Of a DNA stretch of 43,243 bases, positions 753 through 19,575 are shown piece by piece (position 1 is the stretch's first letter; each line of letters starts with the position of its first letter). The notes beneath the pieces were generated by a model. The model did not search any database and had not been told where the DNA came from. It worked only from the letters and a program-made list of their open reading frames with translations. Origin of the DNA: a virus; the IMG/VR virus record IMGVR_UViG_3300042391_000138, positions 1-43,243 of that record; one strand, given 5' to 3'. Position numbers and translations under genes: made by a program.

Positions 753-885
753 ACAATCTCCGCTACAAAGAATAAATAGAATAATGGACTTTCTCTGGAA
801 AAGAGGAAATAATAAAGAGTCTGTAAATAATGTTTACCGTAACATAATAAAGAAAAAGTATGAAAAAGTATACTCAAGAATTTAA
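739..885 (+). CDS. Tiny basic protein (48 residues), overlapping both neighbours
   Basis: ATG at 739 opens a 48-codon frame ending with TAA at 883-885. It overlaps the end of the previous gene by 14 bases and the start of the phosphoesterase gene by 26 bases. Without it, about 107 bases would be empty in an otherwise tightly packed operon. The product is rich in Lys, Arg and Asn and looks helical, with Phe-Leu-Trp near residue 19 and a Lys-rich patch near residue 39. I do not recognise a family. A gene is supported mainly by context. Confidence 0.5.
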   Translation: MKEHKQSPLQRINRIMDFLWKRGNNKESVNNVYRNIIKKKYEKVYSRI

Positions 886-2434
886 AGATTCAATATTACA
901 TTACTTCTCAAACGGACACAGTATAACAGTGTCTTGCAACAAGGCTTGTAAGGATCATGGCATCGCTTATAATGATAGCATGAGAAGGAAGGTATCTAAG
1001 TGGCTTGAAAAGAACAAGATCTCTAACAATCTAGAGATTGAGAATACAGATGTTTTCAAGGAAGCTAAGAAGAAGATACACGATAACTCTAAGAAGAGAT
1101 TCATTGTGTCATGGTGTCAGTCAGAAACAGATATAAACCATAGGCTGCTAACCAATATCGAAGCTTACGCAAAGTTTATCGATGCCTCTATACATATTAT
1201 AGCTGGTAGGTATAAGAACCCAATATCATTGTCTGCGAGTAAGTCAATCCAAAACAAGGAAGACATTGCTCAGAACTCTTGGCACGAGAGAGTGGTACCT
1301 TATCTTGATGCAAATAGACATAAGATACACAAGCACTTATGCATCCTTTCAGACCTTAAAATTCAACCGACAGCATCTACTCCATTGTCTGGGATAAACG
1401 GGCTTACAGGGCTTGAATCGTGTATCGTTGGGCATCCTAGAGTACATCTTAAGTCGCTTCCAATCCTTGACGGATATCCTCACAAGCTGATTCTTACTAC
1501 AGGATCTGTTTCTATTGAGAATTATACAGACACAAAGGTAGGTAAGAAGGGTGAGTTTCACCATACGTATGGGTTTGTTATTGTTGAATTAGACGGTGAT
1601 GACTTCCACGTAAGACAAGTAACTGCTGATGATCTTGGATCATTCTACGATCTTGACTATCATGTTATGGGAGGTATTGTTGAGAAGATTGACGAGCCTA
1701 CTGTAATGGTGTTTGGTGATCTTCACCTTGGAGAAACAAATGAAAAAGTTCTTGACGTTTCTTTAGATATGGCTGATAGACTTAACTGTAAGCAGATCAT
1801 ACTTCATGATGTGTTCAATGGTCACTCTATATCTCATCACGAGAGAAATCAACCGTTCCAACTACTTAAGCGTGAGGAAGATGGATCAAATTCTTTGATA
1901 GACGAGCTTGACGAGATGGTTGAATTCTTTGAAAGATACTCTAACTATAACTTCGGAGTAGTTAGAAGTAATCATGACGAGTTCCTTGATAGATGGCTTA
2001 ATGATGTTGACTGGCGTAAGCATAATAATAAGATGGCTTACATACAGTTAGCTTCTATGATGGTTAACTCTGACGATAACAAGGGGGTTATTCCACTATA
2101 CTTAAAGACCCTTGGAGTTACTAACGCCTTCTGTTTAGGTATAGACGATAGCCTTAGAGTTATGGACTGGGAACTTGGAGTTCATGGTCATATAGGAGCT
2201 AACGGTAGTAGAGGTAGTGCTATGCAGTATGCTCAGATGAATACCAAGAACATTACAGGACATACTCACTCTCCATTGAGATTAGACGGTCACATATGTG
2301 TTGGAACACTTACACACCTTAGGGTAGGTTACAATAAGGGGCTTAGTAGCTGGATGAATACAAACGCTGTAATACATCCAAATGGTAAGGCTCAGCTAAT
2401 AAACATTGTAAACGGTAAATATACAACTATATGA
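860..2434 (+). CDS. T5 A1-like DNA-transfer protein: HTH plus calcineurin-like metallophosphoesterase
   Basis: This 524-residue protein has three parts. Residues 1-55 look like a helix-turn-helix segment. Residues 75-265 form a domain shared with the A1 'DNA transfer' proteins of T5-like and many environmental phages (Arg-Tyr-Lys-Asn-Pro at 117-121; Gly-Lys-Lys-Gly-Glu-Phe-His-His at 228-235). From about residue 280 there is a calcineurin-like metallophosphoesterase: Gly-Asp-x-His (Asp287, His289), His-Asp (Asp317), Ser-Asn-His-Asp (Asn371, His372, Asp373), and Gly-His-Thr-His (467-470), with a further His-Gly-His at 442-444. All expected metal ligands are present. In T5, A1 is needed for host DNA breakdown and completion of DNA entry. 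A role as a nuclease or phosphatase acting early in infection is inferred. The next gene overlaps its stop by four bases. Confidence 0.85.
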   Translation: MKKYTQEFKDSILHYFSNGHSITVSCNKACKDHGIAYNDSMRRKVSKWLEKNKISNNLEIENTDVFKEAKKKIHDNSKKRFIVSWCQSETDINHRLLTNIEAYAKFIDASIHIIAGRYKNPISLSASKSIQNKEDIAQNSWHERVVPYLDANRHKIHKHLCILSDLKIQPTASTPLSGINGLTGLESCIVGHPRVHLKSLPILDGYPHKLILTTGSVSIENYTDTKVGKKGEFHHTYGFVIVELDGDDFHVRQVTADDLGSFYDLDYHVMGGIVEKIDEPTVMVFGDLHLGETNEKVLDVSLDMADRLNCKQIILHDVFNGHSISHHERNQPFQLLKREEDGSNSLIDELDEMVEFFERYSNYNFGVVRSNHDEFLDRWLNDVDWRKHNNKMAYIQLASMMVNSDDNKGVIPLYLKTLGVTNAFCLGIDDSLRVMDWELGVHGHIGANGSRGSAMQYAQMNTKNITGHTHSPLRLDGHICVGTLTHLRVGYNKGLSSWMNTNAVIHPNGKAQLINIVNGKYTTI

Positions 2435-2667
2435 GCAAAGCGGTAATAACATGGAACTTAAATGATCGTGATGAGAATCAAGACTTTAAGAGATGTATTA
2501 AGTCTAAAGATATGGCTACGTTGCTGTGGGAGCTAAAGCATAACGGATACAAGAACTGTGTTAAAGATTCTGATGACTTTGGTTATGATGACTTATTCAC
2601 AGCGTTTGAGTATATTAACAAACTATTCGAAGAATACAATGTTGATATAGATGATCTTATAGACTAA
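2431..2667 (+). CDS. Small acidic hypothetical phage protein
   Basis: This 78-residue protein begins inside the stop region of the phosphoesterase gene (ATGA overlap), so translation is probably coupled. It opens with an Ile-Thr-Trp-Asn-Leu stretch, has a Leu-Trp-Glu-Leu helix near residue 31, and ends in an acidic Asp/Glu-rich tail. The pattern resembles short conserved phage proteins of unknown role that lie beside replication or nuclease genes; this is from memory only. It is the last gene of the plus-strand cluster and is followed directly by a strong terminator. Confidence 0.75.
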   Translation: MSKAVITWNLNDRDENQDFKRCIKSKDMATLLWELKHNGYKNCVKDSDDFGYDDLFTAFEYINKLFEEYNVDIDDLID

Positions 2668-2672
2668 AAACT

Positions 2673-2696
2673 AAAGCCTCCTTAACGGGAGGCTTT
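2673..2696. terminator. Bidirectional rho-independent terminator between convergent operons
   Basis: A perfect 9-bp stem (AAAGCCTCC paired with GGAGGCTTT) with a 6-base loop (2682-2687) is followed by T-rich sequence on both strands: a T run to 2698 on the plus strand, and AGTTTTTAG after the stem on the minus strand. It therefore can stop both the early plus-strand transcript and the long late minus-strand transcript. The stop codon of the giant late gene (2682-2684 read on the minus strand) lies in the hairpin loop. Confidence 0.9.
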
Positions 2697-5600
2697 TTCT
2701 CTCATTGCTTTTATTGCGTTATATGCATTAGGATTATTAGTTTTCAATTTCTCTAAATCTGAATCACTCATCTCTCCTTTACTAGATGATTTCTTTTTAT
2801 ATACAGATGTTTGTTTTCCAAATAAAGCTAGAGTAGTATAAAAAGCAGAACCTAATACAGGATCTTCATCAACGATATCTTTTACAGTACCCACAAATAT
2901 AGGCATTAAATTTTCTTTAGTTTGATAGTCTATACCAACTCTATCTTCAAATAACATTCTTCTATTTTCTTTCAAATTGGTTTCCTCATTTAAAACCTCT
3001 TCTTTTTTACCCATAGAATATCTAACAAACATTCCAGGGAATGGATTTGCCTTTCCAGCAATATATTCAGAAGCTATTTGAAAGTCAGTTCTACTTCCCC
3101 ATTTAGCTCCATTTTCTATTATATTACCACCTTTATTTGTCTGACCAGTAAACAATCTTGAAAATAAAACTATATTGTTTCTATACGGACCAAAGAAATC
3201 GGTTTTTGTATCACCACTAACAACTTGCATAAAATCAGAGCTTCTTGGATCGTATTCAATATAAGCTCTTTTTTTGTTTTTTTCTTCTTCTGTCATTTCA
3301 TCATCATCATCTAAAGCAGAATTTATAAGTGAAACAACTAATGCTGACATTCCGTAAAACGCTATAAATCCTTTCAACATTGGTCTTACAAATGCTTTTT
3401 GAGCTACAGTTGGTCTAATTGATCCCCATGTTTTTGGATTTGACAATGTAACATTATCATAATTACCTAACTTAGCTAAATAATATAAAGATACTGGAGG
3501 TGTCATATTTAATGAAGCAGCCCAAAATCTAGGAGAGAAAAACAATTTATTAAGCATAGGTAATGCCATAGATAATTGTTTATTAAGATTCCCAGTTCCA
3601 GTAATAGTATTTACAGCGCTAGCTAAGTCTTTATAATCTTGTAAATGATCAACTGGATTCTTTCCTTGCATCTCTAAAGCTTGAACACCATCCATAAACA
3701 TCTCAACCCTAGCCATGTTCATAAATGTATTATTACCTCTCTCGAAAGCTCCTAATGGATTTACGGCTTCAAAAATTTCTTCAGCTGTCTTAATGTTCTT
3801 TTCAGAAACCTTTCCAGTTTTAAATTTTTCATAATATCCTTGAAGAGTAATTCTTTTTCTACCTTTTTCAAATTCTGTTAGAGCAGTAAATGGAAGTTTT
3901 AATATGTGTAAAAAGTGATTACCAATAAACATCTCATCTCTTACTTGAGTTTTTATGTCTTCTGATAAAATACGTAGTTTAGATTTTAAAAACACATCAT
4001 AATATGGATGAGCTTTTAATAAAGACTGGTAATCATCATAATTATTCTTATTACCCATTTTATTAAACATCTCAATAATAGTTTCTGCTGAAGTAGCTGA
4101 TCTTATTATATTTGAAATTGTTTTGATAGGAGATTTAACCCAATCAGATAAAGAAGTTCCTTTAAAGTTTTTAACTAAACTATTAAAAGTTTTTCTAGAA
4201 AAAGTAGAATTTATCATATAGAATCCACCTTGAGCACCTACAAACGAAAGTTCCCCAGTAGCTCTTGTAACCCTTTGAGCATCCCACATATCAGATAAGA
4301 ATCCAGTTATTTTTTCTGGAACAGTTCTATTTTCTAATTCCTTAGTGTATATGATCTTATCGTATTCTTCTTGGACTCTATTCTTTTCTGTTTTTAATTT
4401 TTTTAATTCTTCACTTTCTTTTATAGGAGTAACTTCTTTTTTAGAAAAATCATTATTTTTAATTTTTTCTTTAAGCTCCTCTATTTTTTTTCTAACATAA
4501 TTTTCATTAGCAGTAGTTCTTTCTATATCTTCAATTCCAAGATTTTTTTTAATGGCTTTTATTTGAACCATATATTTTTTCTCTAAATCAGATAAAGCTC
4601 TCTTTTTGATTTCATTTTTAGATTTAGAAATACCTTTCTTTAAGTCTTCTAATTGGCTTTCTAATCTACCTAAAGATTTTAATCTAAGGATGTCATCATT
4701 TAACTCTGTTCTTGTTTTATTTAATCTGCTTCCGTAATTAGAAATTTTATCTCTAATCTCTCTAACCGTTAGGTTAGGGTACTCATCTTTAGAGTCGTTT
4801 AATATTTGTTCAGATAATTCATTTATATCAGATCCTCCATTAACTACATAATTAGAAATAATTTCAGAAGGAATTTTAATAACTCCTTTTGTTACTGTTA
4901 ATTTTTTAGTTTTAGGATTAACGTATTCAGAGAACTTTAATTTAATATCGTTTTCATTAAAATCTATATTATTCTTTTCGTACCATTGTTTTATAACTTT
5001 AAAACTTTCTTCGATAGCCTTAGCAAAATCTTTAGTAGCATCATGAACATCAGCAAAAGTTTCTAACGCTTTAGCAAAAGTTTTTTCAAAAGTTAAACCT
5101 TGAGTTTTAGTTCCCTTAGCAGCTTCTGCTACAGCCCATGATGGAAGAATTGTTTTCTTACCACTTCTTATGTCTTTAGCTAAACTTCGTGCCTTAGAAC
5201 CAATGTTTTCATTAGATGTAACTCTACTAAAATCTTCTATTATATTTTTAAAGTTTTGCTCGTCTATTGATTCTTTTAATTTAGACTCAAGTTCTTTTAT
5301 TTTTTTATTAGCATCTGAATATCTTTTATTAAGAGCTTCAAACTTTTTTAAAGTATCTTCATCAATTACTCCAGCATTAACAGCCATGTATTTTTCCTTT
5401 TGAACAGGTAAAGAATACATAACTTCTTGATTCTTAATGTATAGAGCATTTAATATAGAAGTTGCCTGACCTATATCAGTTTGTCTTTTTGAGAATTCTT
5501 CGAATATAGTTTCTAATAATTCATTATATTCATTCCTAACTGTTTCTTTTTCAGATTCTGTTTTAGCATCTTCAATTGCATTTTCAGCTATATTAGGTAT

Positions 5601-8600
5601 TCTATCTATAATAGATGCATATATAACAGTGACTGAATCTCCATTTTTTATACTTCCATTTTTTATAGCTTCATATGCATTTTCTATACCAACCTCATCA
5701 ACAAATGCCTCAGCATCAGATATAACTTGTTGTTGATTTCTTTGTGTATAATTAATACCTACTTTATCTATAATTTCATTTATATACTCAGCATTACCAC
5801 CTTCTTTTATTCTTTTAAGAACAGATCTTTCTTTTTGTTTACCTTTACTAGGTTGTTCTTTTATTACTTTCTCTGTTTTAACTGGTGTACTTTGTTTAAC
5901 TGTTGTTAAATCACTATAGACTCTCTCAGCTAAAGAAACTTGATCAGCACCTAATTCACTGCTTATGATTTTTTGGATCTCCATAATAGACATACCGTCA
6001 TCGATCATGTCCTTAACAATATCCTTCATATCTAAATAGTCCTCAGACTCTTGCATTCTACCTTTATTGGTATTAAGCATAAGTCCTTGAGTAGAAACTC
6101 CAGAAGTAGGGAATATATTTAACTGTCTTTCTTTGGTTACAATATTACCAGTTGTAGGGTCTTCAAATACATCGCTCCATTGAACTCTATCTTTTAATAT
6201 ATGTAGTTTTACTTTATTGTTAGAATCTACAGATTGAATAGCTTTTGGATAAGATTCGTGTTTATTAGAATCTATTGGCTTGACATCTCCATTAAGTTCT
6301 AATATAGCATATACCTGACCTCCTTTATTTCTATCTATCCCCTCTTTCAACATTGGCTCTGTAAGCATTTCTGAAATAGCTTGAGTCATATTAGCAGCAG
6401 AGATACTTAACTTACCAGTTTTTGTAATACCTTTAAATGATTCATTTTTAATACCTTCACTAAAGAATTTACCAAATTGATCTATAGCTTTAGGATTTTG
6501 TTTTACTATATCAGCTGTATTAGATATAAATGATTTAACAAATGCTTTTCTATCAGCAAAAGAGCTATTATCTGGACCAAGTTTTTTAGATATTTCAGAT
6601 TTTACTTCTTCTAAAGAAGCTCCTTTTTTAAATACTAAACCTAAACCTACTTTTTTACCTTCAATTTCAACAACTTTATTAGCAGCGTCAATTAAAGATT
6701 TTTTAACTTGTTCCTTATTTAATGAAAAACTTCTATCAAACGCTTTAGATGAAATTATTTCCATAACTCCATTAGCAGCTGTTGTGCTTGATAGTAATTT
6801 ATCACTAGGAGCACTTGTAAGAGCCATTAATAATTTACCTCCGTTGGCTTTTCTTGCTGCATTTAAATCTTTAGCCATCTTATTGGCTGTGGTTTCCGTA
6901 CTAGCCCAGAAATAACCATCTTCATGGAATTTTATTGGATAATATACACCACCTTTTCCTTCAACTAAAGGCTCTCCATTTTTATATATCTCTCCAGAAA
7001 AAGCAGCATCAGGTTGATGTAAGAATATAGTTTGACCATTAAAGTCTTCAATAGACATATCTTTTGTTATATATCCTTCTTCCTCTAACTTTTTAAATTT
7101 CTCTGTATTTTTATCGTAAACAAATTCTACTTTAGATTTAGGATCTATAAAGTCAGCTTGGAATTTCTTAACAGCATCTTTAATAGTTTTTTGTTCCTTT
7201 ATAATTTTAATATCCTTAGCAACAATTTCTTGTCCAGTTGCAACCTTACCAGATAATGTTTTAAGCATATCTACAATCTCATCTTCTGTAAATGGAGTTA
7301 AACCAAACATCTTAGCAAGGCGATCCATAGCTCTCTTAATTATAGACTTAGTAGGAGCGTCAAATCCTTCATAACCATCAGCAAGATATCCAAAAAGCTC
7401 AGCCATTTTCTCTTCGCTCTGTACATTCTCATCATAGTTATTAATAAAGTCATCAAGTGTATTCTTAAGATCTGGATTGCCTTCAAGAGTTTTAGCAATA
7501 GAACTAATCATTCTCTTTGTTAACTCTCTAGCATTAGCATCGGTCTTTACCTTTTCTAGTAACACAGAGTGAAACACTTCATGAGCAACAGTTCTAGCGT
7601 TAGCTTCCAAAGCATTTATATGTATAGTTACAGTTGCTGGATCATAGTAACCTCTTCCACTCTTACCAGCTTCTTTAATAAACGATTCTTTAGTATCGTG
7701 AACTACAAACTTTACATTTGGAAGTGCCTTAGATAATGATTTCTTAGCATTATCAACCTGAGTATCTAATTTAGTTCTATCGTATACTGGCTTATTAATA
7801 TACTTAGCCTTAAATGCTTCAAGTTTAGTTTTAACAATTGGTTTAACTTTAGTAACTTTTATTTCACTTACATAACCATCACGATACTTCATGGCTTCGT
7901 CATAATCAGTAAATGATTTCTTTTCTATGTTTAATTCTCCGTTTGGATCATAAACCATAGCCACAACATCTGGAGTTCCTTGTTCTGGAGTCCATCCTTC
8001 TGGAGCATATTCTTCATTAAATGGAAGTCTAGAAACCTCTCTAAAACCATTACGTTCGTATATTTTCATTAAGTTAGGAAGAGCAAAGTTATCTAACTTT
8101 ATCCCTCCTTTTTTAATAGCTTCTTGTATTACCTTATCTCCAGTTTTTTCAGTAGATTTTAAATCAGATTTAAATACTCCTTTAATATCACCGTCTTCTC
8201 CCACAACTCCAAACCCAGATTCTGTTTTTATAATTCTGCCTTCTTCAGCAGCCTTATCTAATTGAACCTTGTCAATAGTACCATCTTCTTTTTGAAATGG
8301 TCTATCAACTGACCAGAATGTTTCTGGAGAATCTGTCTTAACCTTTTCAATACTTTGAATATACTCATCAGCTATTCCTGTTGGAGCAACTACTTCTTCA
8401 GTAACTTTTTCTTCTATAGTAGGCTTAATTTCAGCAATTCCTAACTCAGCTTTCTGCTTAGAAGTTAGTTTCTCTTTCATAGCAGGATTCATGATATCAT
8501 TGCCCTGTTCCACTTTAGATTTACCTTGTATGTCTCCATAACCTTTTGTAATGTATTCCTCAGTAGTAAGAGTGTTTTCTTTACCTATGTTCTCAGAACT

Positions 8601-11126
8601 TGCTACACGACCATCTTTATCTTTTGATACAAGTTCTCTACTTCCATCTTTTTTTGTTGTTACTATTGTACTATAAACATTTCCATTTTCATCTTTAACC
8701 TCAAAAGTCTCTCTATTTAAAGGTATTTGACTATCTTTTATTCTTGTTTCTTCAACTACTACTTCTTCAGTAGGTTCATACTTAGTATCTATTAAAGCGT
8801 TTCTTTCTTCTTGAGTGGCTTTATATTCTTGTTGAAGATCTTTAATTAATTCAGCTTTATTAGGTAAATTACCTTCATTTATAGCAAAAGCATCTGTTTT
8901 AATATCAGCAATTTTATTATTTAAATCAATTATATTTCTATACACATCGTCTGGCATATTATTAATATTACCGATTGTGTCATTTAATATAGTTGAATTC
9001 TCAAAAGTTGCTTTATTTATTTGTTTATTTATAACAGATCTTTCAATATCAGTTAAACTTTCATTCTTTAATTGTTTAGAAAACTCTATAATTTTTCTTG
9101 AATTCTCATCTAATGTATTTAAATCTTTATTTGTTTGAAGTGGTTTTAATATTGCTCCAGCAACATGAGGAGCTGCTTTTAATATATTAGTTAAAGTAAA
9201 TGTATCTTTAAGTACAGTACCAGCATTATCTAATAATCCAACATCTTTTTTTCCTAAAACATATTTATCAGTAAAGTTTTGTGTGAAATTAGTAAACTCT
9301 TCACCAGCAACTTCTTTACTCATATCAATAGACCAGTCTTTAGCCCATTCTTTAGCCTTCTCTTTAACAGATTTAGTTATTAAATCACCTTCATTTTTAA
9401 CTATAGAATCAAAAACTCTTCCTCCTTTTGTAAGTATAGATAGTGTAGGTATTTCAGATATAACTTCAGCAGATCCCCAAAGAACTGGGGCTACAGCCAT
9501 TTGTAAAGGAGAATAAGTAGCATTACCTTCAAGAACTTCCTTGTTCATTTCAGTAAACTTCTCTCCAGTAGAAGCTATACCAACAACTCCTAATCCACCT
9601 ACACCAGTAGATGTAGCAACTAGATTTGGTATTTGTTTAGATACAATATCAGAAACATAATTAATAAATCCTTCAGGACTTTCTATACTTTCCACACCCT
9701 TTCTTAATTGACTTTCTTCTTCAGATATGTATTGATTTATTTTATCTGTGGTTTTTTGACCAGCCATAGAGTATAATTCTCCTTGTAATCCACCACCAAA
9801 TTTTGCAGCATAATTAGTAAAACCTAATATACCATTTAATATTTTAGTCCCTCCTAATCCAATATTTGAAATTGCATTATCTATGTCTCCATATCTTCTT
9901 TTAAGCAAATCAATTTCTTGTTGTGCAGTACCTAAATCTTCCTTATTTTTATTTATTACAGATTGTTTTTTTTCTATAGTATTTCCAATACCAACGATCT
10001 CATTCCCTAAAGAAACATATGCGTCATATACATCCTTTGGAAGAGGTTGGTTATTATTTTTATAATTAAGAAGTTGTTGTTCTAAATTTTTATACTCTTT
10101 TATTTTTTTGTTACCAATAACTTCGTATGCATTTATAACCTTTTCCTCTTTTAAATTATTTTCTTGAAGGTGTTCTGCTGTTTGTCTTCTTGATTGTCTT
10201 AATAGATTTTTATCTTCTTCATCAAGATCATCTAAAAAAGAATTTATATTATCAGTTTCAATATAATCAACCTGTTTATCTTTATATAGATTTTTCGCAA
10301 GTTCTGTTACCTGTTGATCATTTAACTTAATTTTTTTCTTAGCAGCATCTTTTTTTACTTCTTTTTTCTCTTCAGATAATGGATCTACGTCAGCCTTAAG
10401 TTCTTTTAGTCCAGGTTCATCTGTAATAGATGCAGCTTGATCTATTACTTTGTTATATATATTTAATGAAGTTGCCTTTATATTATTCCATACACCAGTA
10501 GTTGTAAGCAAGTCGTTAAGTCTTTTATCGGCTTCTAACTTTACAGACTCTTCATTCTTAGCTTGTTTGAATTGATTCTCTATTTCAGATAGTCTAGAAT
10601 CTTTTATTTCATCTTGAGCTTTAATAACAGAAGATAATTCATCTGTTTTTCTTAATACCTCATCTTGATTTTCTGGAGTAACCTTTATTGTAGATAATTC
10701 CTTTTGTAATTTTAATTTTTTAGCTATTAAATCAGAAGATTTAGAAAGTTTTGTAACTGGTTTAGCCTGAAGAGTACTTTGTTCTTCAGGTGTAAGTCCA
10801 GTAAATGTTTTCATTTTAGTTTGTCCATCTAAACCATCCGATTCCACAGGAACTTGAGTTTCTTCTGTATCCAACGAAACAGGTGTAGTCGTAAGTTTCG
10901 ACTTTGAATCCGATGTGTTTTTTTGAGAAGTAGGTTGTAAAACTTCTTTTTTTTTTACTTTACTTTCAAAATCATTATATGAACCTAAATCAAAATTTTT
11001 AGACGCTGAATCAAATAATTTTTTTCTAGATTCAGGATTATTCATTTTTGAATTAAATTCATCATATGAACCTAAATCGTATTTACTAGAAAGCGCTGAA
11101 TAAAGTTTTTTTCTTGGATCTGGCAT
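2682..11126 (-). CDS. Giant polyvalent ejection/cargo protein (GNAT-like, HExxH metallopeptidase, LPD38-like)
   Basis: At 2814 residues this is the largest gene of the window and the last of the late region. Residues 3-56 hold a tandem repeat of about 28 residues (Arg-Lys-Lys-Leu, then Asp-Leu-Gly-Ser-Tyr, then a Phe-x-Ser-Lys turn). Residues 130-410 are largely charged and probably coiled coil. Residues 415-670 include Gly-rich, hydrophobic stretches. Residues 955-1060 resemble the GNAT-like domain of phage polyvalent proteins (Leu-Asp-x-Phe, Tyr-x-x-x-Gly-Phe, Tyr-Ala-Pro-x-Gly-Trp, Pro-Asp-Val-Val). A zinc metallopeptidase motif His-Glu-Val-Phe-His is at 1182-1186, with a candidate third ligand in Glu-Leu-Phe-Gly at 1243-1246. 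A region of unknown fold spans 1330-1740, and long coiled coils lie at 1910-2260. Residues 2570-2700 resemble the LPD38 domain seen at the C-terminus of phage and plasmid polyvalent proteins. Position after the internal virion genes suggests packaging and injection with DNA. No DxDxD RNA-polymerase motif was found. Confidence 0.85.
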   Translation of the reverse strand: MPDPRKKLYSALSSKYDLGSYDEFNSKMNNPESRKKLFDSASKNFDLGSYNDFESKVKKKEVLQPTSQKNTSDSKSKLTTTPVSLDTEETQVPVESDGLDGQTKMKTFTGLTPEEQSTLQAKPVTKLSKSSDLIAKKLKLQKELSTIKVTPENQDEVLRKTDELSSVIKAQDEIKDSRLSEIENQFKQAKNEESVKLEADKRLNDLLTTTGVWNNIKATSLNIYNKVIDQAASITDEPGLKELKADVDPLSEEKKEVKKDAAKKKIKLNDQQVTELAKNLYKDKQVDYIETDNINSFLDDLDEEDKNLLRQSRRQTAEHLQENNLKEEKVINAYEVIGNKKIKEYKNLEQQLLNYKNNNQPLPKDVYDAYVSLGNEIVGIGNTIEKKQSVINKNKEDLGTAQQEIDLLKRRYGDIDNAISNIGLGGTKILNGILGFTNYAAKFGGGLQGELYSMAGQKTTDKINQYISEEESQLRKGVESIESPEGFINYVSDIVSKQIPNLVATSTGVGGLGVVGIASTGEKFTEMNKEVLEGNATYSPLQMAVAPVLWGSAEVISEIPTLSILTKGGRVFDSIVKNEGDLITKSVKEKAKEWAKDWSIDMSKEVAGEEFTNFTQNFTDKYVLGKKDVGLLDNAGTVLKDTFTLTNILKAAPHVAGAILKPLQTNKDLNTLDENSRKIIEFSKQLKNESLTDIERSVINKQINKATFENSTILNDTIGNINNMPDDVYRNIIDLNNKIADIKTDAFAINEGNLPNKAELIKDLQQEYKATQEERNALIDTKYEPTEEVVVEETRIKDSQIPLNRETFEVKDENGNVYSTIVTTKKDGSRELVSKDKDGRVASSENIGKENTLTTEEYITKGYGDIQGKSKVEQGNDIMNPAMKEKLTSKQKAELGIAEIKPTIEEKVTEEVVAPTGIADEYIQSIEKVKTDSPETFWSVDRPFQKEDGTIDKVQLDKAAEEGRIIKTESGFGVVGEDGDIKGVFKSDLKSTEKTGDKVIQEAIKKGGIKLDNFALPNLMKIYERNGFREVSRLPFNEEYAPEGWTPEQGTPDVVAMVYDPNGELNIEKKSFTDYDEAMKYRDGYVSEIKVTKVKPIVKTKLEAFKAKYINKPVYDRTKLDTQVDNAKKSLSKALPNVKFVVHDTKESFIKEAGKSGRGYYDPATVTIHINALEANARTVAHEVFHSVLLEKVKTDANARELTKRMISSIAKTLEGNPDLKNTLDDFINNYDENVQSEEKMAELFGYLADGYEGFDAPTKSIIKRAMDRLAKMFGLTPFTEDEIVDMLKTLSGKVATGQEIVAKDIKIIKEQKTIKDAVKKFQADFIDPKSKVEFVYDKNTEKFKKLEEEGYITKDMSIEDFNGQTIFLHQPDAAFSGEIYKNGEPLVEGKGGVYYPIKFHEDGYFWASTETTANKMAKDLNAARKANGGKLLMALTSAPSDKLLSSTTAANGVMEIISSKAFDRSFSLNKEQVKKSLIDAANKVVEIEGKKVGLGLVFKKGASLEEVKSEISKKLGPDNSSFADRKAFVKSFISNTADIVKQNPKAIDQFGKFFSEGIKNESFKGITKTGKLSISAANMTQAISEMLTEPMLKEGIDRNKGGQVYAILELNGDVKPIDSNKHESYPKAIQSVDSNNKVKLHILKDRVQWSDVFEDPTTGNIVTKERQLNIFPTSGVSTQGLMLNTNKGRMQESEDYLDMKDIVKDMIDDGMSIMEIQKIISSELGADQVSLAERVYSDLTTVKQSTPVKTEKVIKEQPSKGKQKERSVLKRIKEGGNAEYINEIIDKVGINYTQRNQQQVISDAEAFVDEVGIENAYEAIKNGSIKNGDSVTVIYASIIDRIPNIAENAIEDAKTESEKETVRNEYNELLETIFEEFSKRQTDIGQATSILNALYIKNQEVMYSLPVQKEKYMAVNAGVIDEDTLKKFEALNKRYSDANKKIKELESKLKESIDEQNFKNIIEDFSRVTSNENIGSKARSLAKDIRSGKKTILPSWAVAEAAKGTKTQGLTFEKTFAKALETFADVHDATKDFAKAIEESFKVIKQWYEKNNIDFNENDIKLKFSEYVNPKTKKLTVTKGVIKIPSEIISNYVVNGGSDINELSEQILNDSKDEYPNLTVREIRDKISNYGSRLNKTRTELNDDILRLKSLGRLESQLEDLKKGISKSKNEIKKRALSDLEKKYMVQIKAIKKNLGIEDIERTTANENYVRKKIEELKEKIKNNDFSKKEVTPIKESEELKKLKTEKNRVQEEYDKIIYTKELENRTVPEKITGFLSDMWDAQRVTRATGELSFVGAQGGFYMINSTFSRKTFNSLVKNFKGTSLSDWVKSPIKTISNIIRSATSAETIIEMFNKMGNKNNYDDYQSLLKAHPYYDVFLKSKLRILSEDIKTQVRDEMFIGNHFLHILKLPFTALTEFEKGRKRITLQGYYEKFKTGKVSEKNIKTAEEIFEAVNPLGAFERGNNTFMNMARVEMFMDGVQALEMQGKNPVDHLQDYKDLASAVNTITGTGNLNKQLSMALPMLNKLFFSPRFWAASLNMTPPVSLYYLAKLGNYDNVTLSNPKTWGSIRPTVAQKAFVRPMLKGFIAFYGMSALVVSLINSALDDDDEMTEEEKNKKRAYIEYDPRSSDFMQVVSGDTKTDFFGPYRNNIVLFSRLFTGQTNKGGNIIENGAKWGSRTDFQIASEYIAGKANPFPGMFVRYSMGKKEEVLNEETNLKENRRMLFEDRVGIDYQTKENLMPIFVGTVKDIVDEDPVLGSAFYTTLALFGKQTSVYKKKSSSKGEMSDSDLEKLKTNNPNAYNAIKAMREKASR

Positions 11127-13385: not shown

Positions 13386-13784
13386 CTATATTTTTTTTAT
13401 ATATTCTACAATATTTTTAGAAGATGAATTATACTCTGCATCTTCAAATAACTTCTTTAAAACTGGACTAGAACTTACTGTCATAATAAGATCGTATCCA
13501 ATATCCTTCATATAATGCTCTATATTGTAAAGTAAAAATTTAAGAGCATCCTTTCTATATTTTTTTTCTGCCTCTTTATTTCCAGTTATAAAACCAATCC
13601 AACACCAAGAAGAATCGCTAACATAAACTGGAGCTGCATATAAATCAATTCCTTCTGCACTTACCACAAAAATCCTTTCTGGTAATGATGATTTCAATAG
13701 TATAGGAAAATTCCATTTAGACCACCAGTTTACTAGTGTTTCATAATAATCATCCCTGTACTCTAATCTACACTTATGCATCAT
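13386..13784 (-). CDS. GNAT-like acetyltransferase-fold protein
   Basis: The 132-residue product has the order expected of a small GNAT fold: an N-terminal helical segment with two Trp, a strand with Ile-Phe-Val-Val-Ser, a central strand region with Trp-Cys-Trp-Ile-Gly-Phe-Ile, then a helix with an Arg/Lys patch (Lys-Lys-Tyr-Arg-Lys-Asp-Ala), and a last segment Pro-Val-Leu-Lys-Lys-Leu-Phe typical of GNAT C-termini. The canonical Gln/Arg-x-x-Gly-x-Gly/Ala acetyl-CoA loop is not clear, so it may be inactive or highly diverged. Similar small proteins sit among virion genes in other environmental phages. The start codon lies only two bases past a promoter box (13786-13793), so the message may be nearly leaderless. 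Confidence 0.6.
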   Translation of the reverse strand: MMHKCRLEYRDDYYETLVNWWSKWNFPILLKSSLPERIFVVSAEGIDLYAAPVYVSDSSWCWIGFITGNKEAEKKYRKDALKFLLYNIEHYMKDIGYDLIMTVSSSPVLKKLFEDAEYNSSSKNIVEYIKKI

Positions 13785-13799: not shown

Positions 13800-14543
13800 T
13801 TATGGGAAACTTTTGAATAGACTGCTTCCCACAGAAAACAACTCAACTCTATTTATATTCCAATTAACCAATTCAAACTGCATGTAGTATCCACGTACAC
13901 CGTAAGATTCAGCAATTGAGTTTTGGAAATAAAAGATATAATCTGTTACTAATGGTATACTTCCATTGGTAGTATCTATTGTTATTGTTGTATTTGTTTT
14001 TGCTATTATTCTACCTATTCTCTGAGGCAATCCACCATTACTTGTATAAGCGTCAGCTCCAAGACTTATAATACTTCCAAGATTAAAGCTAAATGTTACT
14101 AAAACAGATGTTGGAACAGTAGCGTTTACAGCTATAGGTCTTCCTATACCCTGAGTTGATCTTAGGTTTAAGTCTTGAGTATTAGCGTTACTTCTGATAT
14201 ACGCAAAGTAATCTCCTTCTTTAAATTCAAAGTAAGAAGAATCTATAAAACCAGTAGATAGATCTGTAAATACATTAGTGTACCAAGAGTCATCGCTATT
14301 TAATGCTATAGTATTAAAATTCTTTACTACATTAGAGTCTGAATTAAAAACAGCAGTAAGTTTTGATGGATATGGAATATCGTAGAATCTATTTCTATCT
14401 ACAACATCTGAGTTATGACGATATATGTTACCATTCTTGAATGTATAAAAATAAGAATTCATACCAATCATCATCTCTGGTATGTAAGAAAAGAAAGATG
14501 TCCATCCCTGAACGTATTCGCTATATGATAATGTTTTTTCCAT
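13800..14543 (-). CDS. Tail-hub-associated structural protein
   Basis: This 247-residue protein starts one base before the next upstream gene ends its run (14543/14544), so it is tightly coupled to the tail-hub genes. Its N-terminal part has the pattern Tyr-Val-Gln-Gly-Trp-Thr-Ser-Phe-Phe-Ser-Tyr-Ile-Pro followed by Tyr-Phe-Tyr-Thr-Phe-Lys-Asn-Gly and Tyr-Arg-His-Asn. As I remember them, these are typical of the C-terminal part of the large 'stabilization' or muzzle proteins of Bacteroidota phages. Here this segment is a separate gene. The rest is beta-rich. It is most likely a structural part of the short tail. Confidence 0.65.
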   Translation of the reverse strand: MEKTLSYSEYVQGWTSFFSYIPEMMIGMNSYFYTFKNGNIYRHNSDVVDRNRFYDIPYPSKLTAVFNSDSNVVKNFNTIALNSDDSWYTNVFTDLSTGFIDSSYFEFKEGDYFAYIRSNANTQDLNLRSTQGIGRPIAVNATVPTSVLVTFSFNLGSIISLGADAYTSNGGLPQRIGRIIAKTNTTITIDTTNGSIPLVTDYIFYFQNSIAESYGVRGYYMQFELVNWNINRVELFSVGSSLFKSFP

Positions 14544-14891
14544 TTAACAAGTTCCTGTTGTTATACTAATTACTGGACCTACTGATGATACTGTCCCTTG
14601 TATTGCACAAAAAACAAATGATGTTTCTACAAATACTTCTTGAAATATTCCGTCACAGTCTACATAATATATGTTTCCTGGGAAGCCAAGTGCATCTGCA
14701 CTATACTGAACACATGGGTCAGTAGGTTCTGGTGTACAGTCAATAGTATTTAATAGAAATCCATTAAACTGCTGTCTATAAACACCAAAAAAAGAATAAA
14801 ATCCATCTGGTGCCTTTATAGTTAAATTAGGATCCTCCCATGCAGCTGTTGCTGTGGCAAAACTCTGTGTGTCTATGTAAAATGTAGCCAT
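14544..14891 (-). CDS. Small Cys-containing tail-associated protein
   Basis: This 115-residue protein lies between the muzzle-like gene and its presumed continuation. The start has the pattern Phe-Tyr-Ile-Asp followed by Ala-Pro-Asp-Gly-Phe-Tyr-Ser-Phe and Val-Tyr-Arg-Gln-Gln, which I associate with short domains repeated in Bacteroidota phage tail proteins. Five cysteines suggest disulfides or a metal site in a virion protein. The C-terminus is Gly/Val/Thr-rich and probably beta. Structural function is inferred from place and composition. Confidence 0.6.
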   Translation of the reverse strand: MATFYIDTQSFATATAAWEDPNLTIKAPDGFYSFFGVYRQQFNGFLLNTIDCTPEPTDPCVQYSADALGFPGNIYYVDCDGIFQEVFVETSFVFCAIQGTVSSVGPVISITTGTC

Positions 14892-14895
14892 ATAT

Positions 14896-17800
14896 TTATA
14901 AACAATAATTAATATCTAAAATAGTTCCTTCTATTCCTACCTTACACCATTTAGTAAAACTTTCGTTATTATTTACAGTTTGAGAGTATCCAATGTATTC
15001 TTCTGATTCACTATTATAAGGATTTATTAATTCAGGATCAGTGTATAAAATATCTCCAATTTGTAATTGAGAATTAGTAGAGTATCTATTAGTTCTTAAG
15101 TATGTAGGTCCTCCAGTTGTATATCTTAAACAAGCTTCATTAGAAGATTCACTTCCTGATAATGACATATTGAATAAGTATGAAGTACGCTCGCAATCAG
15201 CACAAGCAACCTCATAGTTTGTTTCATCATAACATAAGTTTATTTCATATGCCTTAGTATAATCCCATATTAAATATAGATATTGTTTACTATCTGGATT
15301 ATCATAAACGAATGATGTTGAGTATTTACCTGTTGATGGATTCAATACAGGAGAAGCTACAGTTGATGTAGTTAGTAATGTATTAACATCTAATTCAGTA
15401 TATAGCGTATTAGAAACTAAATATCTAAAAGAATTTAAATCATTATCAAAAACAAATGTATCTCCTGTTAACTTGTTAGATTCAAATGTTACAGTACTTC
15501 CTATTGCTGGAAAAACACCTACTGATGCCATGTTTGTATCTGCATCAAATAAAGAAACTCCATCACCTTCCAATAAAACATAATCAGTATTATATGGGCT
15601 TGTAAATGTATTTAAACTCCATTTATAACTATTATGTATAGTTTCATCTATAGATATTGGAGAATTAGTAACCACTCTAACTACCGTAATCTCTTGAGAT
15701 ACTGGACAGTTTGGAGTTAAAACATACGAACATGTTTCTTCTGTTTCTATAATCACCGTAACTGTAGTAGGAAGCACAGTATCCTTTGTAAAAGATACAG
15801 TACCTGTTCCATCAATCACTTGGTTTATAACAGATACAGAGTTGTATATTACATTTATATTTGCAGATCCTTCAGAAAAACTATAATCAAAGTTTACTTC
15901 TCCAACAGTTTCTCCTAACTCTAATGTGAATTCATAACTTCCAATAAATAATTGTTGAGATATAGTAACACCACAAGCATAATTATCTGAAATATAAGGA
16001 AGCTTCTCATCATTGATAGATAAAACATACTCATTAGTATAAGGATCAAATCCTCCTAGTTTTTGAGTTCCTAATGAATTTTTAAATTCGTTTCTAAACC
16101 AGTTCTTTAATCCAAAATTAGAAATAATTTCTAGTTGTTCTGATTGCCCTGATCCTCCTCTTAGATTTAGTACAGCGGTACGTTTTACATCAGTAAAAAA
16201 TACTTCTCCTCCTCTAACAGCAAAACTCTCTGGATTACTACTAATACCATAATCCTCTATCCTAGATATCTGAGTACCAAGTACTTCTGGTATAGATGTA
16301 ATAGCTCCACCAGCAGCAGCATCAGAAAGTAAATTTTTACCAGCTAATACATACGATATCTTATCCTCCTGAAGAGTTAAAATATCTGTCTTTCTTGCGT
16401 ACAATTTATTAATTGGACCAAATGATTTCTCACAATCCTTCCAGTTAGAAAGAGCAAGGTTGAATTCATTCAGTTTATTTATATTTGTTTCTGCATTATA
16501 TATACCACTATAGGTAAGTCCTGCATATCTATTTGCTTCTTTAAATTCCTCCTGAGAAACAGCTGTAACCCTGCTTCCAAGATAGAATGGAGAACCGATT
16601 ATAGAGTCATTTATCTTATAACTTTCAGCACCATTTCCAAATGTATAGCAATTAAAGAAATTTAAAGCAACTATTGCTGGTAAATTAGATGTTTGTGATT
16701 GATCTCCATCTTGATTACCGCTCATATGAAGTCTATTTACTATAGGAAAACTATCGCTTCCTTCATAAAATATCTCTCCGTCAGAGTCTTCAGCTTCAGT
16801 TTCAAATATCATTAAAGAAGTAGCTCTTTGTACTGTTATATGTATATTTGTTCTAGAAAAAGTAGGATTTATAATAGCATTACAAGAAGGTGTTCCAGTA
16901 GTAACTACTAACCATAACTGACCAGTAGTTGTATTCTCCTGAAATTGATAACGATTAACATTTTGAATAAATGGAAGATGACATGAATATCCAATAAAAG
17001 GACCATCAGGACATTGAAACCATTGCTCTAAAGTTTGTGTTTGTACGTTGTTATTTGGAGTTTCTCCTCCGTAATAAGAACCACTACCAAAATCTATATT
17101 ATCTCCTTGAACAAAATCATATAATGTTCCATAATCTTGAGATGCTATAAATGTTTTAGCAAATGTATACTCGCTAGATCCACAAGACCCAGCATCTATA
17201 CCAGATCCTCTCTTTAATACAATATCAAATGTAATAGAACTTCCAGCTGGAATATCGTATGGAATGTATGGAGTTATTGTAGGAGTTATAATAGGACTAA
17301 CATAGTCTGGATTATCTATATGACATGGATATAATGTAGTTATACCAGTCTCTAAACCACCGTAATCTATAAAAGAGTTTGGCTTGTATTGAGCTACAAA
17401 ATTAGAAGCTTTTAAAGCCATATACATACCAGCAGGTTCTTTAATATCACCTCCTGATTCATTTGTATTTCCAGTAATAAAATCTATAGGTTGAGCAGCA
17501 AGTTCCAATACCTTTGTTTTCACTAGTGTATCTAATACACCATTGGTATCTCTCTTAACTATAAGAGTTGAGTTCTCTTGAACCTTACTTCTATTATCTC
17601 CCTCTAATTTAAACCAAGTTAAACCAGTATCTGCAATATAAAACTGATTTGTATAAACAACCTGATAATTTGCTTTAGATGGTTTTACAACAAACTTATA
17701 TCTTGTAGCCCAACTTGGAGCTAAGTTATTTACTGTAGCTACTATGTAGTTCTTAGTGTCTGATGCAGAAGCAGGTATAAATATAGTATTTGAAGTATTA

Positions 17801-19575
17801 ACTAAAGCAGTAGAGCTTCTTAAATTATCATCCATATAAACAATAGCAACCTCATAACCTCTATTACTATGTAAGCTTTGTCTAGCACCTATCTTATAAA
17901 ATGTAGATGAGAAAGATGAATTACTAAAATACTCATAAGCATAAAAATAACTACCAGGATTTGCTGGATCTTCAATTGTGAATTTAACAGCTGGTGCTTG
18001 AATCTCAAGTATACTGCTTCCAATTGTTGATGTTATTTTAAAACCTTGATCTACTGCTGTTACCCCACTATCTACATCTTGCCAAGGCGTAGTAAATGGA
18101 GGAGATACTCCTTTTGCTACCATTGAACAATTAAATACATCTGTTAAAGAAGTTCCTAATCCACATGAAGCGTATGGCTCATGATTAGATACTGCATTTT
18201 TAAATTCATCACTATTAGCTAAGTCATAAACACTTGAATAGTCTCTTCTTAATGTAAATATAAAATCATTTATAAACTCATTTAATGGAGCTTCAGAAGA
18301 AGGAGGATTATTATATGTAGGATATCCAGAAAATGAACCATGAACTAGATTAAACGACATAGTAAATGCAGATCCTTCTGTTAAATCAATACCTGTTAAG
18401 TCTAGCGTTACAGCAGAATTATTTGAAGTTACAGTATCGCTTGGATCTATAGTATAATTAACACCGTCTACTAACAAATAAGGAACTAATGTAAAGTTTA
18501 TCTCTTCATTTACCAAATCTAAAGAGTAGTCTAAAGTTGTGTCAATATCGTATCCATCAACATAGTTACCGTATACTAGTCTATTGCCCATAACTGTTTG
18601 AGAAATAGCAGTTCTAGGTACGTTATCGTATAATCTTAGCAGCTCACTTTCTGTAAGTACAGTATATATCTTTCTATTATCAAATAAAACACTTTGAGTT
18701 GTATTATCAGACCATCCTTGTTCAGCTTTGTCATACTTCTCAATTACATTTACAATATTTGAATCTGATAATTTAAAACATAAATCAAGACCAATAACAT
18801 TATAATCACCAACATTAAAAGATACGTTTGCAGAATTAAAAATGTTCTGCATTGCTTTGTTTGTGTATGTAGCGAAGTCTAGTTCAAAAGGACCAGGCTC
18901 GAATGCTACTGTAGTAAACTGAGAAAGAGCGCTGTACTCATTATCTTTATACTTGTATCTATATGCGAAAGAAATAAATCTCTCAGTCATATAGTTCTCA
19001 TCACCAGGTTGTTCTAATAATATTACGGATGGAGACTCAATAGGAGGAGCAACAATAACTGATATATCTTCTTCTCTTATAACGTCAACTCCAGAAACTG
19101 GGTTAGGATAGTTTCTATTTATATTTATTTTTCTTGGAGGATTTAATCCATCTGTAAAAAACAATAAGTCATCAACCTTATTTATACTATTTATAAGGTA
19201 TTTTTTATCAAAATTAAGAACTGTTGTAGATATAACGTGATACTTCACAACTGATGTTTTTGTATCATAAGATAATATCATGTCGACATTACCTGGATCA
19301 CATACAAACCAATAAATAGTTTCGTTTGTACCGTCCTGAAAAGCACCTATACATCTAGCGTCCTTACCTAAAGTATTTGGACCAAATCGTATATCGGTTA
19401 ATTGATGGTTACCCTTTGAATTCTCAAGAGCACCAATACTATCAAGTTCTGTAGATCCAATTCTGATATTTAACGCATCAATATATTGACCAGGAGGAAC
19501 TAACCTCTCGTCAAAATCTTTATTCATTTTACCAGCTACAAAGTTTACTTCTGCAGATCCGTTTATATTAGCCAT
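14896..19575 (-). CDS. Large tail-hub ('stabilization' or muzzle) protein
   Basis: This 1559-residue protein starts with a segment characteristic of the stabilization or muzzle proteins of Bacteroidota podoviruses: Gly-Lys-Met-Asn-Lys-Asp-Asp-type residues near 16-21, Pro-Pro-Gly-Gln-Tyr-x-Asp-Ala-Leu-Asn near 27-36, and Asn-Ser-Lys-Gly-Asn near 52-56. The rest is Thr-, Ser-, Asn- and Tyr-rich and probably nearly all beta-strand. In Crassvirales this class of protein forms the outer tube of the short tail below the ring proteins. Its place just downstream of two ring/connector-like genes and upstream of the cargo genes is the order known from those phages. A Cys pair near residues 1480-1485 (Cys-x-x-Cys) is of unknown meaning. 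Confidence 0.8.
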   Translation of the reverse strand: MANINGSAEVNFVAGKMNKDFDERLVPPGQYIDALNIRIGSTELDSIGALENSKGNHQLTDIRFGPNTLGKDARCIGAFQDGTNETIYWFVCDPGNVDMILSYDTKTSVVKYHVISTTVLNFDKKYLINSINKVDDLLFFTDGLNPPRKININRNYPNPVSGVDVIREEDISVIVAPPIESPSVILLEQPGDENYMTERFISFAYRYKYKDNEYSALSQFTTVAFEPGPFELDFATYTNKAMQNIFNSANVSFNVGDYNVIGLDLCFKLSDSNIVNVIEKYDKAEQGWSDNTTQSVLFDNRKIYTVLTESELLRLYDNVPRTAISQTVMGNRLVYGNYVDGYDIDTTLDYSLDLVNEEINFTLVPYLLVDGVNYTIDPSDTVTSNNSAVTLDLTGIDLTEGSAFTMSFNLVHGSFSGYPTYNNPPSSEAPLNEFINDFIFTLRRDYSSVYDLANSDEFKNAVSNHEPYASCGLGTSLTDVFNCSMVAKGVSPPFTTPWQDVDSGVTAVDQGFKITSTIGSSILEIQAPAVKFTIEDPANPGSYFYAYEYFSNSSFSSTFYKIGARQSLHSNRGYEVAIVYMDDNLRSSTALVNTSNTIFIPASASDTKNYIVATVNNLAPSWATRYKFVVKPSKANYQVVYTNQFYIADTGLTWFKLEGDNRSKVQENSTLIVKRDTNGVLDTLVKTKVLELAAQPIDFITGNTNESGGDIKEPAGMYMALKASNFVAQYKPNSFIDYGGLETGITTLYPCHIDNPDYVSPIITPTITPYIPYDIPAGSSITFDIVLKRGSGIDAGSCGSSEYTFAKTFIASQDYGTLYDFVQGDNIDFGSGSYYGGETPNNNVQTQTLEQWFQCPDGPFIGYSCHLPFIQNVNRYQFQENTTTGQLWLVVTTGTPSCNAIINPTFSRTNIHITVQRATSLMIFETEAEDSDGEIFYEGSDSFPIVNRLHMSGNQDGDQSQTSNLPAIVALNFFNCYTFGNGAESYKINDSIIGSPFYLGSRVTAVSQEEFKEANRYAGLTYSGIYNAETNINKLNEFNLALSNWKDCEKSFGPINKLYARKTDILTLQEDKISYVLAGKNLLSDAAAGGAITSIPEVLGTQISRIEDYGISSNPESFAVRGGEVFFTDVKRTAVLNLRGGSGQSEQLEIISNFGLKNWFRNEFKNSLGTQKLGGFDPYTNEYVLSINDEKLPYISDNYACGVTISQQLFIGSYEFTLELGETVGEVNFDYSFSEGSANINVIYNSVSVINQVIDGTGTVSFTKDTVLPTTVTVIIETEETCSYVLTPNCPVSQEITVVRVVTNSPISIDETIHNSYKWSLNTFTSPYNTDYVLLEGDGVSLFDADTNMASVGVFPAIGSTVTFESNKLTGDTFVFDNDLNSFRYLVSNTLYTELDVNTLLTTSTVASPVLNPSTGKYSTSFVYDNPDSKQYLYLIWDYTKAYEINLCYDETNYEVACADCERTSYLFNMSLSGSESSNEACLRYTTGGPTYLRTNRYSTNSQLQIGDILYTDPELINPYNSESEEYIGYSQTVNNNESFTKWCKVGIEGTILDINYCL

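Follow-up and report, generated by a model that had tools for sequence, protein, structure and literature searches.

What does a phage encode in a single gene of 2814 codons, and why does the gene carry a run of ten A's just behind a short, exchangeable module at its start? The question is raised by the virus record IMGVR_UViG_3300042391_000138, whose entire linear 43.2-kb sequence (43,243 nucleotides) forms the window analyzed here; the record is probably a fragment, so a gene missing from it may still exist elsewhere in the phage. A first-pass annotation had reported a 2814-residue protein at 2682-11126 without stating the strand, and had missed both the A10 tract and the conserved frame that overlaps the gene behind it. 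The gene is confirmed as one uninterrupted open reading frame (ORF) with an ATG start on the minus strand (2682..11126), the strand of all its parts described below. The explanation that best accounts for the whole locus, and that is considered probable on the evidence of the sequences, is that the gene encodes a giant modular protein of polyvalent type packaged in the virion and that slippage at the A10 tract gives a second, short product.

The A10 tract at the module junction

Relatives of the giant protein are encoded by 38 IMG/VR loci, and tblastn adds Cellulophaga and Tenacibaculum phages as well as the Elemovirus phages of Flavobacterium, which are 62% identical over residues 1119-1694. 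Nearly every relative opens with a short module of its own, and KKK and a polar linker come next. The N-terminal module of the window (residues 1-56, 10959..11126) is a tandem duplicate (RKKLYSALSSKYDLGSYDEF / RKKLFDSASKNFDLGSYNDF), as are the modules in 37 of 57 distinct cases by a shuffle test. Residues 2-58 are matched by phrog_24532 (E 4.8e-11), and the sister locus L015 carries another module in this place. The junction between this hypervariable module and the protein body is the A10 tract (codons 57-60, 10947..10956, GTA AAA AAA AAA GAA), a predicted programmed slippage site.

The tract is conserved in length and position. The window and related loci, 730,513 bases in total, contain A10 32 times and A11 once, with at most one such run per locus and always at the junction, and no other A run of ten or more occurs in this sequence. 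Five loci lack the tract; because two of these are truncated at their 5' ends, the run is present in 33 of 36 homologues with intact 5' ends (32 A10, 1 A11). It is also found in phi38:1, Calle_1, Gundel_1 and the elemo sequences, and no such tract occurs in crAss001 gp45-gp50. The tract is read in all three codon phases, as GTA AAA AAA AAA GAA, CAA AAA AAA AAG or GTT AAA AAA AAA AGT. A purely protein-level constraint on the lysines is rejected because the A runs at other KKK sites are short and Elemovirus has A10 without KKK (GAA AAA AAA AAT). The 106 other KKK sites counted include 11 with A10, which appear to be N-terminal sites missed by the regular expression, and none of the remaining 95 exceeds A7.

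Modules are swapped at the tract itself. Phages phi13:2 and phi18:3 differ in their modules and agree from the tract onward, and loci L008 and L033 show the same arrangement. A further observation concerns L091, where positions 1292-1914 and 2588-3210 are inverted copies of about 617 base pairs that are 90% identical. Both copies begin at the A10 tract, and the N-terminal module in front of one differs from that in front of the other; they form either an inversion cassette or a chimera of assembly or amplification.

A conserved overlapping frame

One extra A in the tract, or a ribosomal shift of -1, leads into an overlapping frame ending in ...KKRSFTTYFSKKHIGFKVETYDYTCFVGYRRNSSSCGIGWFRWTN-stop (10816..10947), the predicted end of the short product. 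Across relatives this frame remains open for 16-55 codons past the tract with a common pattern such as YFSRKCVGIQTKTENHTYFIGYRRNSSSCGIGWFRWTT, and the elemo tail reads ...SKLDYHFNKNSFGFSYTTTRKKTYIGWRKTKNNWGFGIFCWER. Parsimony changes at zero-frame codon positions 1/2/3 were counted among the window, L015, L022 and L016, giving 16/28/26 in the tail and 243/142/455 in the 637 codons of the body (chi-square p=1.1e-5). In the tail, the -1 codons thus change least at their second base and most at their third. Amino acid identity in the tail is 0.646 for the -1 frame, 0.587 for the protein frame and 0.537 for the +1 frame, and the -1 frame rises above the zero frame in none of 560 body windows. When 17 non-overlapping pairs drawn from the two data sets are scored with BLOSUM, 15 favor the -1 frame over the protein frame (sign p=0.002) and 16 favor it over the +1 frame.

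The tail is also recognized outside the sequences from which it was defined. A hidden Markov model (HMM) of the tail finds four Cellulophaga phages absent from its training set (E 1e-5 to 1.4e-4). The nucleotide pattern T-A10-GA-N10-CCTWCT has 47 matches in IMG/VR. Of these, 46 are located behind a module, 28-85 codons from the start of an ORF, and 39 are recognized by the HMM; some of the matches are contigs of the first data set, and the pattern itself forces few tail residues and not the later motif. The same pattern matches only 17 times in 257 Gb of prokaryote genomes, mostly in unrelated sequence and chiefly in one Pelagibacteraceae gene, with one contig (L137) being a phage-like member. 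Together these patterns signal that the -1 frame is under selection beyond the tract. The tail of the +1 frame, which looks amphipathic, is rejected as a conserved product; it meets an immediate stop in L016, L017 and L018, and its conservation is no higher than that of the protein frame.

A giant, probably virion-packaged protein

The giant protein is most likely modular and carried within the virion, a reading well supported by homology because of the phrog and proteomics matches that follow, the zincin and GNAT folds and the extreme shuffling of domains. Residues 380-928 are matched by phrog_22602, a 'virion structural protein' (E 1.3e-25), and residues 380-790 (8757..9989) form a region common to virion structural proteins of phi19:3, phi38:1, Gundel_1 and elemoD. 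For the homologue phi18:3 gp123, the record note bases its annotation on experimental tandem mass spectrometry (MS/MS) proteomics, and the elemo homologue is annotated 'structural protein'. The public notes on one relative (L004:21466-27401, KC821608 gp128/gp129) seem to be offset by a single gene: they label the short gp128 structural because it resembles a gp123, a number that in phi18:3 belongs to the giant protein. The annotated TTG start of the giant falls 3' of the tract and is probably wrong.

Several unrelated enzymatic domains lie in one chain, namely a GNAT-like fold, a zincin-like fold and a third conserved domain. An AlphaFold model of residues 903-1700, built from 33 sequences with a mean predicted local distance difference test score (pLDDT) of 72.6, contains the GNAT and zincin folds for which the first-pass annotation had proposed structure prediction. 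The GNAT-like domain, which that annotation placed at residues 955-1060, covers residues 960-1062 (7941..8249) and is homologous to phage proteins annotated 'acetyltransferase'. A Foldseek comparison of the model with the PDB ranks ArsN (probability 0.90) and other GNATs among the top matches, and zincins with lower probability (selecase 0.66, IrrE 0.47), none of these reaching E < 0.001; a fold search against viral models retrieves GNAT-containing proteins with E down to 1e-14. At the position of the acetyl-CoA loop, where Q/R-x-x-G-x-G/A was sought, relatives read KGVADKVL and the window EKTGDKVI.

The zincin-like metallopeptidase (residues 1117-1300, 7227..7778) contains HEVFH at the predicted residues 1182-1186 (7569-7583), compared with 0.007 HExxH motifs expected from composition. 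The conserved glutamates E1238, E1239 and E1243 and the modeled helices after HEVFH correspond to the zincin layout of an HEXXH helix followed by a glutamate helix. HExxH is kept in 19 of 24 aligned relatives. In the middle region of one clade (L027, L028, L029, L030 and L035) it is replaced by HEAWE-type motifs and the second zinc-binding histidine is lost, so the zincin of these five relatives should be inactive or altered. Iyer et al. consider processing of the own polypeptide a likely role of such zincins (PMC5512222), and by analogy the protease of the giant protein may be self-processing, with which the loss of the zinc ligand in one clade is compatible.

The third domain (residues 1320-1690, 6057..7169) lies within the stretch that is 62% identical to Elemovirus. 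It is strongly conserved, with motifs HQPDAAFSG, GGVYYPIKFHEDGYFWAST and HESYP, and is modeled with good confidence. Neither Pfam nor the top PDB fold matches give it a name, and a sequence search of the PDB with the middle-region alignment returns only unconvincing matches, led by designed helical proteins.

The C-terminal module (residues 2206-2780, 2787..4511) contains the motifs NTITG, FFSPR and DPRSSDF and aligns with about 20 proteins of otherwise unrelated phages, whose consensus includes DLSAPLRQG, NxATGRG, FFSPRL, DPRSSDFGKIK and GNTR. These relatives are found via an alignment with MW202497; the C-terminus as a single sequence finds nothing. Helices dominate the model of the module (pLDDT 68), which is similar to those of internal virion proteins and polyvalent-type proteins, and the module possibly serves encapsidation. 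The first-pass annotation had called this C-terminus LPD38-like, an identity that does not hold: the giant protein has no Pfam match to LPD38 (PF18857), with the best relative at 21.7 bits against a cut-off of 27, a profile comparison with weakly LPD38-like relatives fails, and the C-terminal model matches an LPD38 protein poorly (E 1.3).

The chain is a mosaic of these parts. Over residues 58-786 it shares 84% identity with L015 and L019, which are without the GNAT and have a different cassette instead, and residues 1330-1690 are swapped out in L017 and L019. One cassette stands before the zincin in L015 and after it in Elemovirus. From residue 1790 on, the C-terminus is unrelated in every close N-terminal relative whose sequence extends that far, and L046 combines a C-terminus 49% identical to that of the giant protein with an N-terminus at 29% and a different middle. 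This shuffled mosaic is best read as a virion-packaged polyvalent protein; of the first-pass proposal of such a protein, the GNAT, the zincin and packaging by homology stand, and the LPD38 component is lost.

Proposed mechanism and alternatives

In the proposed mechanism, virions would carry the giant protein and release it into the host upon infection. Its enzymatic cassettes (GNAT-like, zincin and third domain), which phages would exchange among themselves, would lie between an N-terminal module that can be swapped and the C-terminal module. The zincin most likely would cut its own giant protein into working pieces, with attack on the host also possible. At codons 57-60 a fraction of the messages would gain an A from the RNA polymerase or undergo a -1 shift on the ribosome. 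A second protein of about 100 residues would result, made of the same N-terminal module and the conserved, aromatic- and glycine-rich -1 tail, and module-only and giant subunits might thereby use one docking site in a set proportion. In vivo, bacterial RNA polymerase is known to slip efficiently once a run of A or T reaches nine, which is how two proteins arise from Thermus dnaX (PMC5009743); in Citrobacter tssM, with an A11 tract, both products are needed (PMC4256274).

Several observations weigh against this reading. Four Cellulophaga phages have A9, and in them the gene is split: the module is a separate ORF of 87-103 amino acids, in frame with a different (+1) tail, and the giant goes on in the -1 frame. 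The A9 may be real or a sequencing undercall. The phi18:3 annotation reports no short product and lists gp122 as 'hypothetical'. The tail HMM misses divergent A10 sites, for example those of L009, L014, L025, L037, L038 and L040. Repeated on the pattern set, the codon-position analysis gives a weaker result (p=0.029), with some near-duplicate pairs and saturated controls, and the BLOSUM comparison slightly favors aromatic-rich frames, although mean identity still agrees (0.65 vs 0.59).

The nearest rival to transcriptional slippage is ribosomal frameshifting, in which the same two products would arise by a -1 shift on A AAA AAA or A AAA AAG. A possible slippery heptamer is present in all phases, and the A9 phages read TTA AAA AAA AAG, a dnaX-like site. 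Seven bases would suffice for such a shift, however, so that exactly ten in all phases exceeds the need, and no stable RNA structure is found 3' of the tract in the window (z-score -0.76). Transcriptional slippage is favored because the added A leads to the -1 frame, which is the selected one, and the ribosomal route is judged unlikely. The module swaps of phi13:2/phi18:3 and L008/L033, together with the two modules on the inverted arms of L091, would also fit a tract that is merely a recombination joint, its -1 tail a by-product of a serine-, threonine- and proline-rich linker. A joint does not require exactly ten A's, and the codon-position pattern and the excess of -1 identity speak against a by-product, which makes this, too, an unlikely account.

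A phase-variable contingency locus, where slippage in DNA replication would switch production of the giant on at A10 and off at A9 or A11, could draw on the A9 of the four Cellulophaga phages, the A11 of MW202828 and L021 and the hypervariability of the N-terminal module. It is nevertheless very unlikely, given that tract length is almost invariant (A10 in 7 of 7 elemo sequences and 32 of 33 homologous sites), that the A11 sites of L021 and MW202828 are in frame and that selection on the -1 frame is not predicted by it. A different purpose for the giant protein itself would be that of an injected weapon, its zincin and GNAT acting on host proteins at entry, as the first-pass annotation had suggested. 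Such domains are found in conflict proteins (PMC5512222) and the cassettes are exchanged as in an arms race, but no target is known, the zincins of polyvalent proteins are often thought to process their own chain, and the zinc ligand is lost in one clade; the idea is held to be unlikely.

Comparison with known systems

The giant protein is a further member of an already known kind, the phage polyvalent proteins (Iyer et al. 2017, PMC5512222). It shares with them very large size, multiple exchangeable domains including zincin and GNAT, a late-region gene and virion-associated homologues. It differs in that no named LPD domain reaches the Pfam cut-off, and the A10-joined hypervariable module with its conserved overlapping frame is not described in PMC5512222, which does not mention a frameshift. 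Closer counterparts are the Elemovirus giant structural protein and Cellulophaga phi18:3 gp123, phi19:3 gp129 and phi38:1 gp101, which have homologous regions, the same gene position, an A9-A10 tract and the -1 tail, but other cassettes and C-termini; the phi18:3 group differs further in its A9 and its annotated separate short ORF.

The joint resembles Thermus dnaX, Shigella spa13 and Citrobacter tssM (PMC5009743, PMC4256274) in its A or T run of at least nine within a gene and in two products with a common N-terminus, the second being only predicted for the phage gene. Here, by contrast, the site lies near the 5' end of a phage virion gene, the predicted extra product ends in a conserved overlapping frame and the upstream module is swapped between phages. 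In the lambda gpG/gpGT frameshift, too, a single start gives two products whose fixed ratio serves virion assembly, as is predicted here, whereas the site, proteins and probable level of slippage are different. No earlier report of the slippage joint in these phages was found in the searches of open-access papers. A slippage joint with a selected hidden frame would be a new form of known slippage, which is supported by sequence evolution.

Genomic context

Upstream of the giant gene lie, in order, genes for a 483-amino-acid protein, a 267-amino-acid protein, a small GNAT-like protein and a split muzzle. The muzzle-type virion structural protein (1559 amino acids, 14896..19575, minus strand) and a muzzle C-terminal part that forms its own ORF (247 amino acids, 13800..14543, minus strand, also matching PF25729) both match crAss001 gp44 (hhalign, E about 1e-5), which bears out the description of the gene as the last late gene beside the muzzle. 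Within 13800-19575 (minus strand), the two muzzle parts are separated by an ORF of 115 amino acids; crAss001 gp44 is a single chain.

The first-pass annotation also assigned the gene to the cargo and RNA-polymerase slot of Crassvirales. The position downstream of the muzzle gene and, probably, the role of a large virion cargo are shared with crAss001 gp45-gp50 (PMC10172136), but sequence and profile comparisons detect no homology to these proteins. The polymerase motif D[FL]D[GA]D is absent from the giant protein and all of its relatives, as the annotation had noted for the window, and homology to the crAss001 cargo or polymerase proteins is rejected. The nearest relatives, Elemovirus, Pachyviridae and Pervagoviridae, are placed outside Crassvirales in NCBI, so the proposed setting in that order is not upheld by these relatives.

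Two neighbors are recorded as side observations. The 132-amino-acid protein at 13386-13784 (minus strand, phrog_17252) may represent a second gene of GNAT-like type next to the cargo genes; the MW202828 gene at the matching place is annotated as an N-terminal acetyltransferase subunit. A 'DNA transfer protein' (860-2434, plus strand, phrog_1745, E 3e-147) is convergent with the giant gene, and the elemo gene in the same place is annotated A1-like.

Implications

Tentatively, an A10 tract of fixed length, acting as slippage site and genetic joint at once, may allow widespread phages, of Bacteroidota to judge by the cultured members, to attach any of dozens of upstream modules, in any phase, both to an injected multi-enzyme giant and to a small partner protein with the -1 tail. 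The first-out module may then be a rapidly evolving part that recognizes the virion or the host envelope. Phage proteins of this giant, injected type are difficult to study, and most lack annotation. If the reading is true, a conserved slippage site with a selected hidden frame adds a virion protein overlooked by annotation pipelines, and A10 after a short variable module would provide a DNA signature for such cargo genes in metagenomes. The hypothesis is testable in cultured phages, namely Elemovirus, phi38:1, Gundel_1 and phi18:3, and the fixed joint illustrates how phages swap protein parts.

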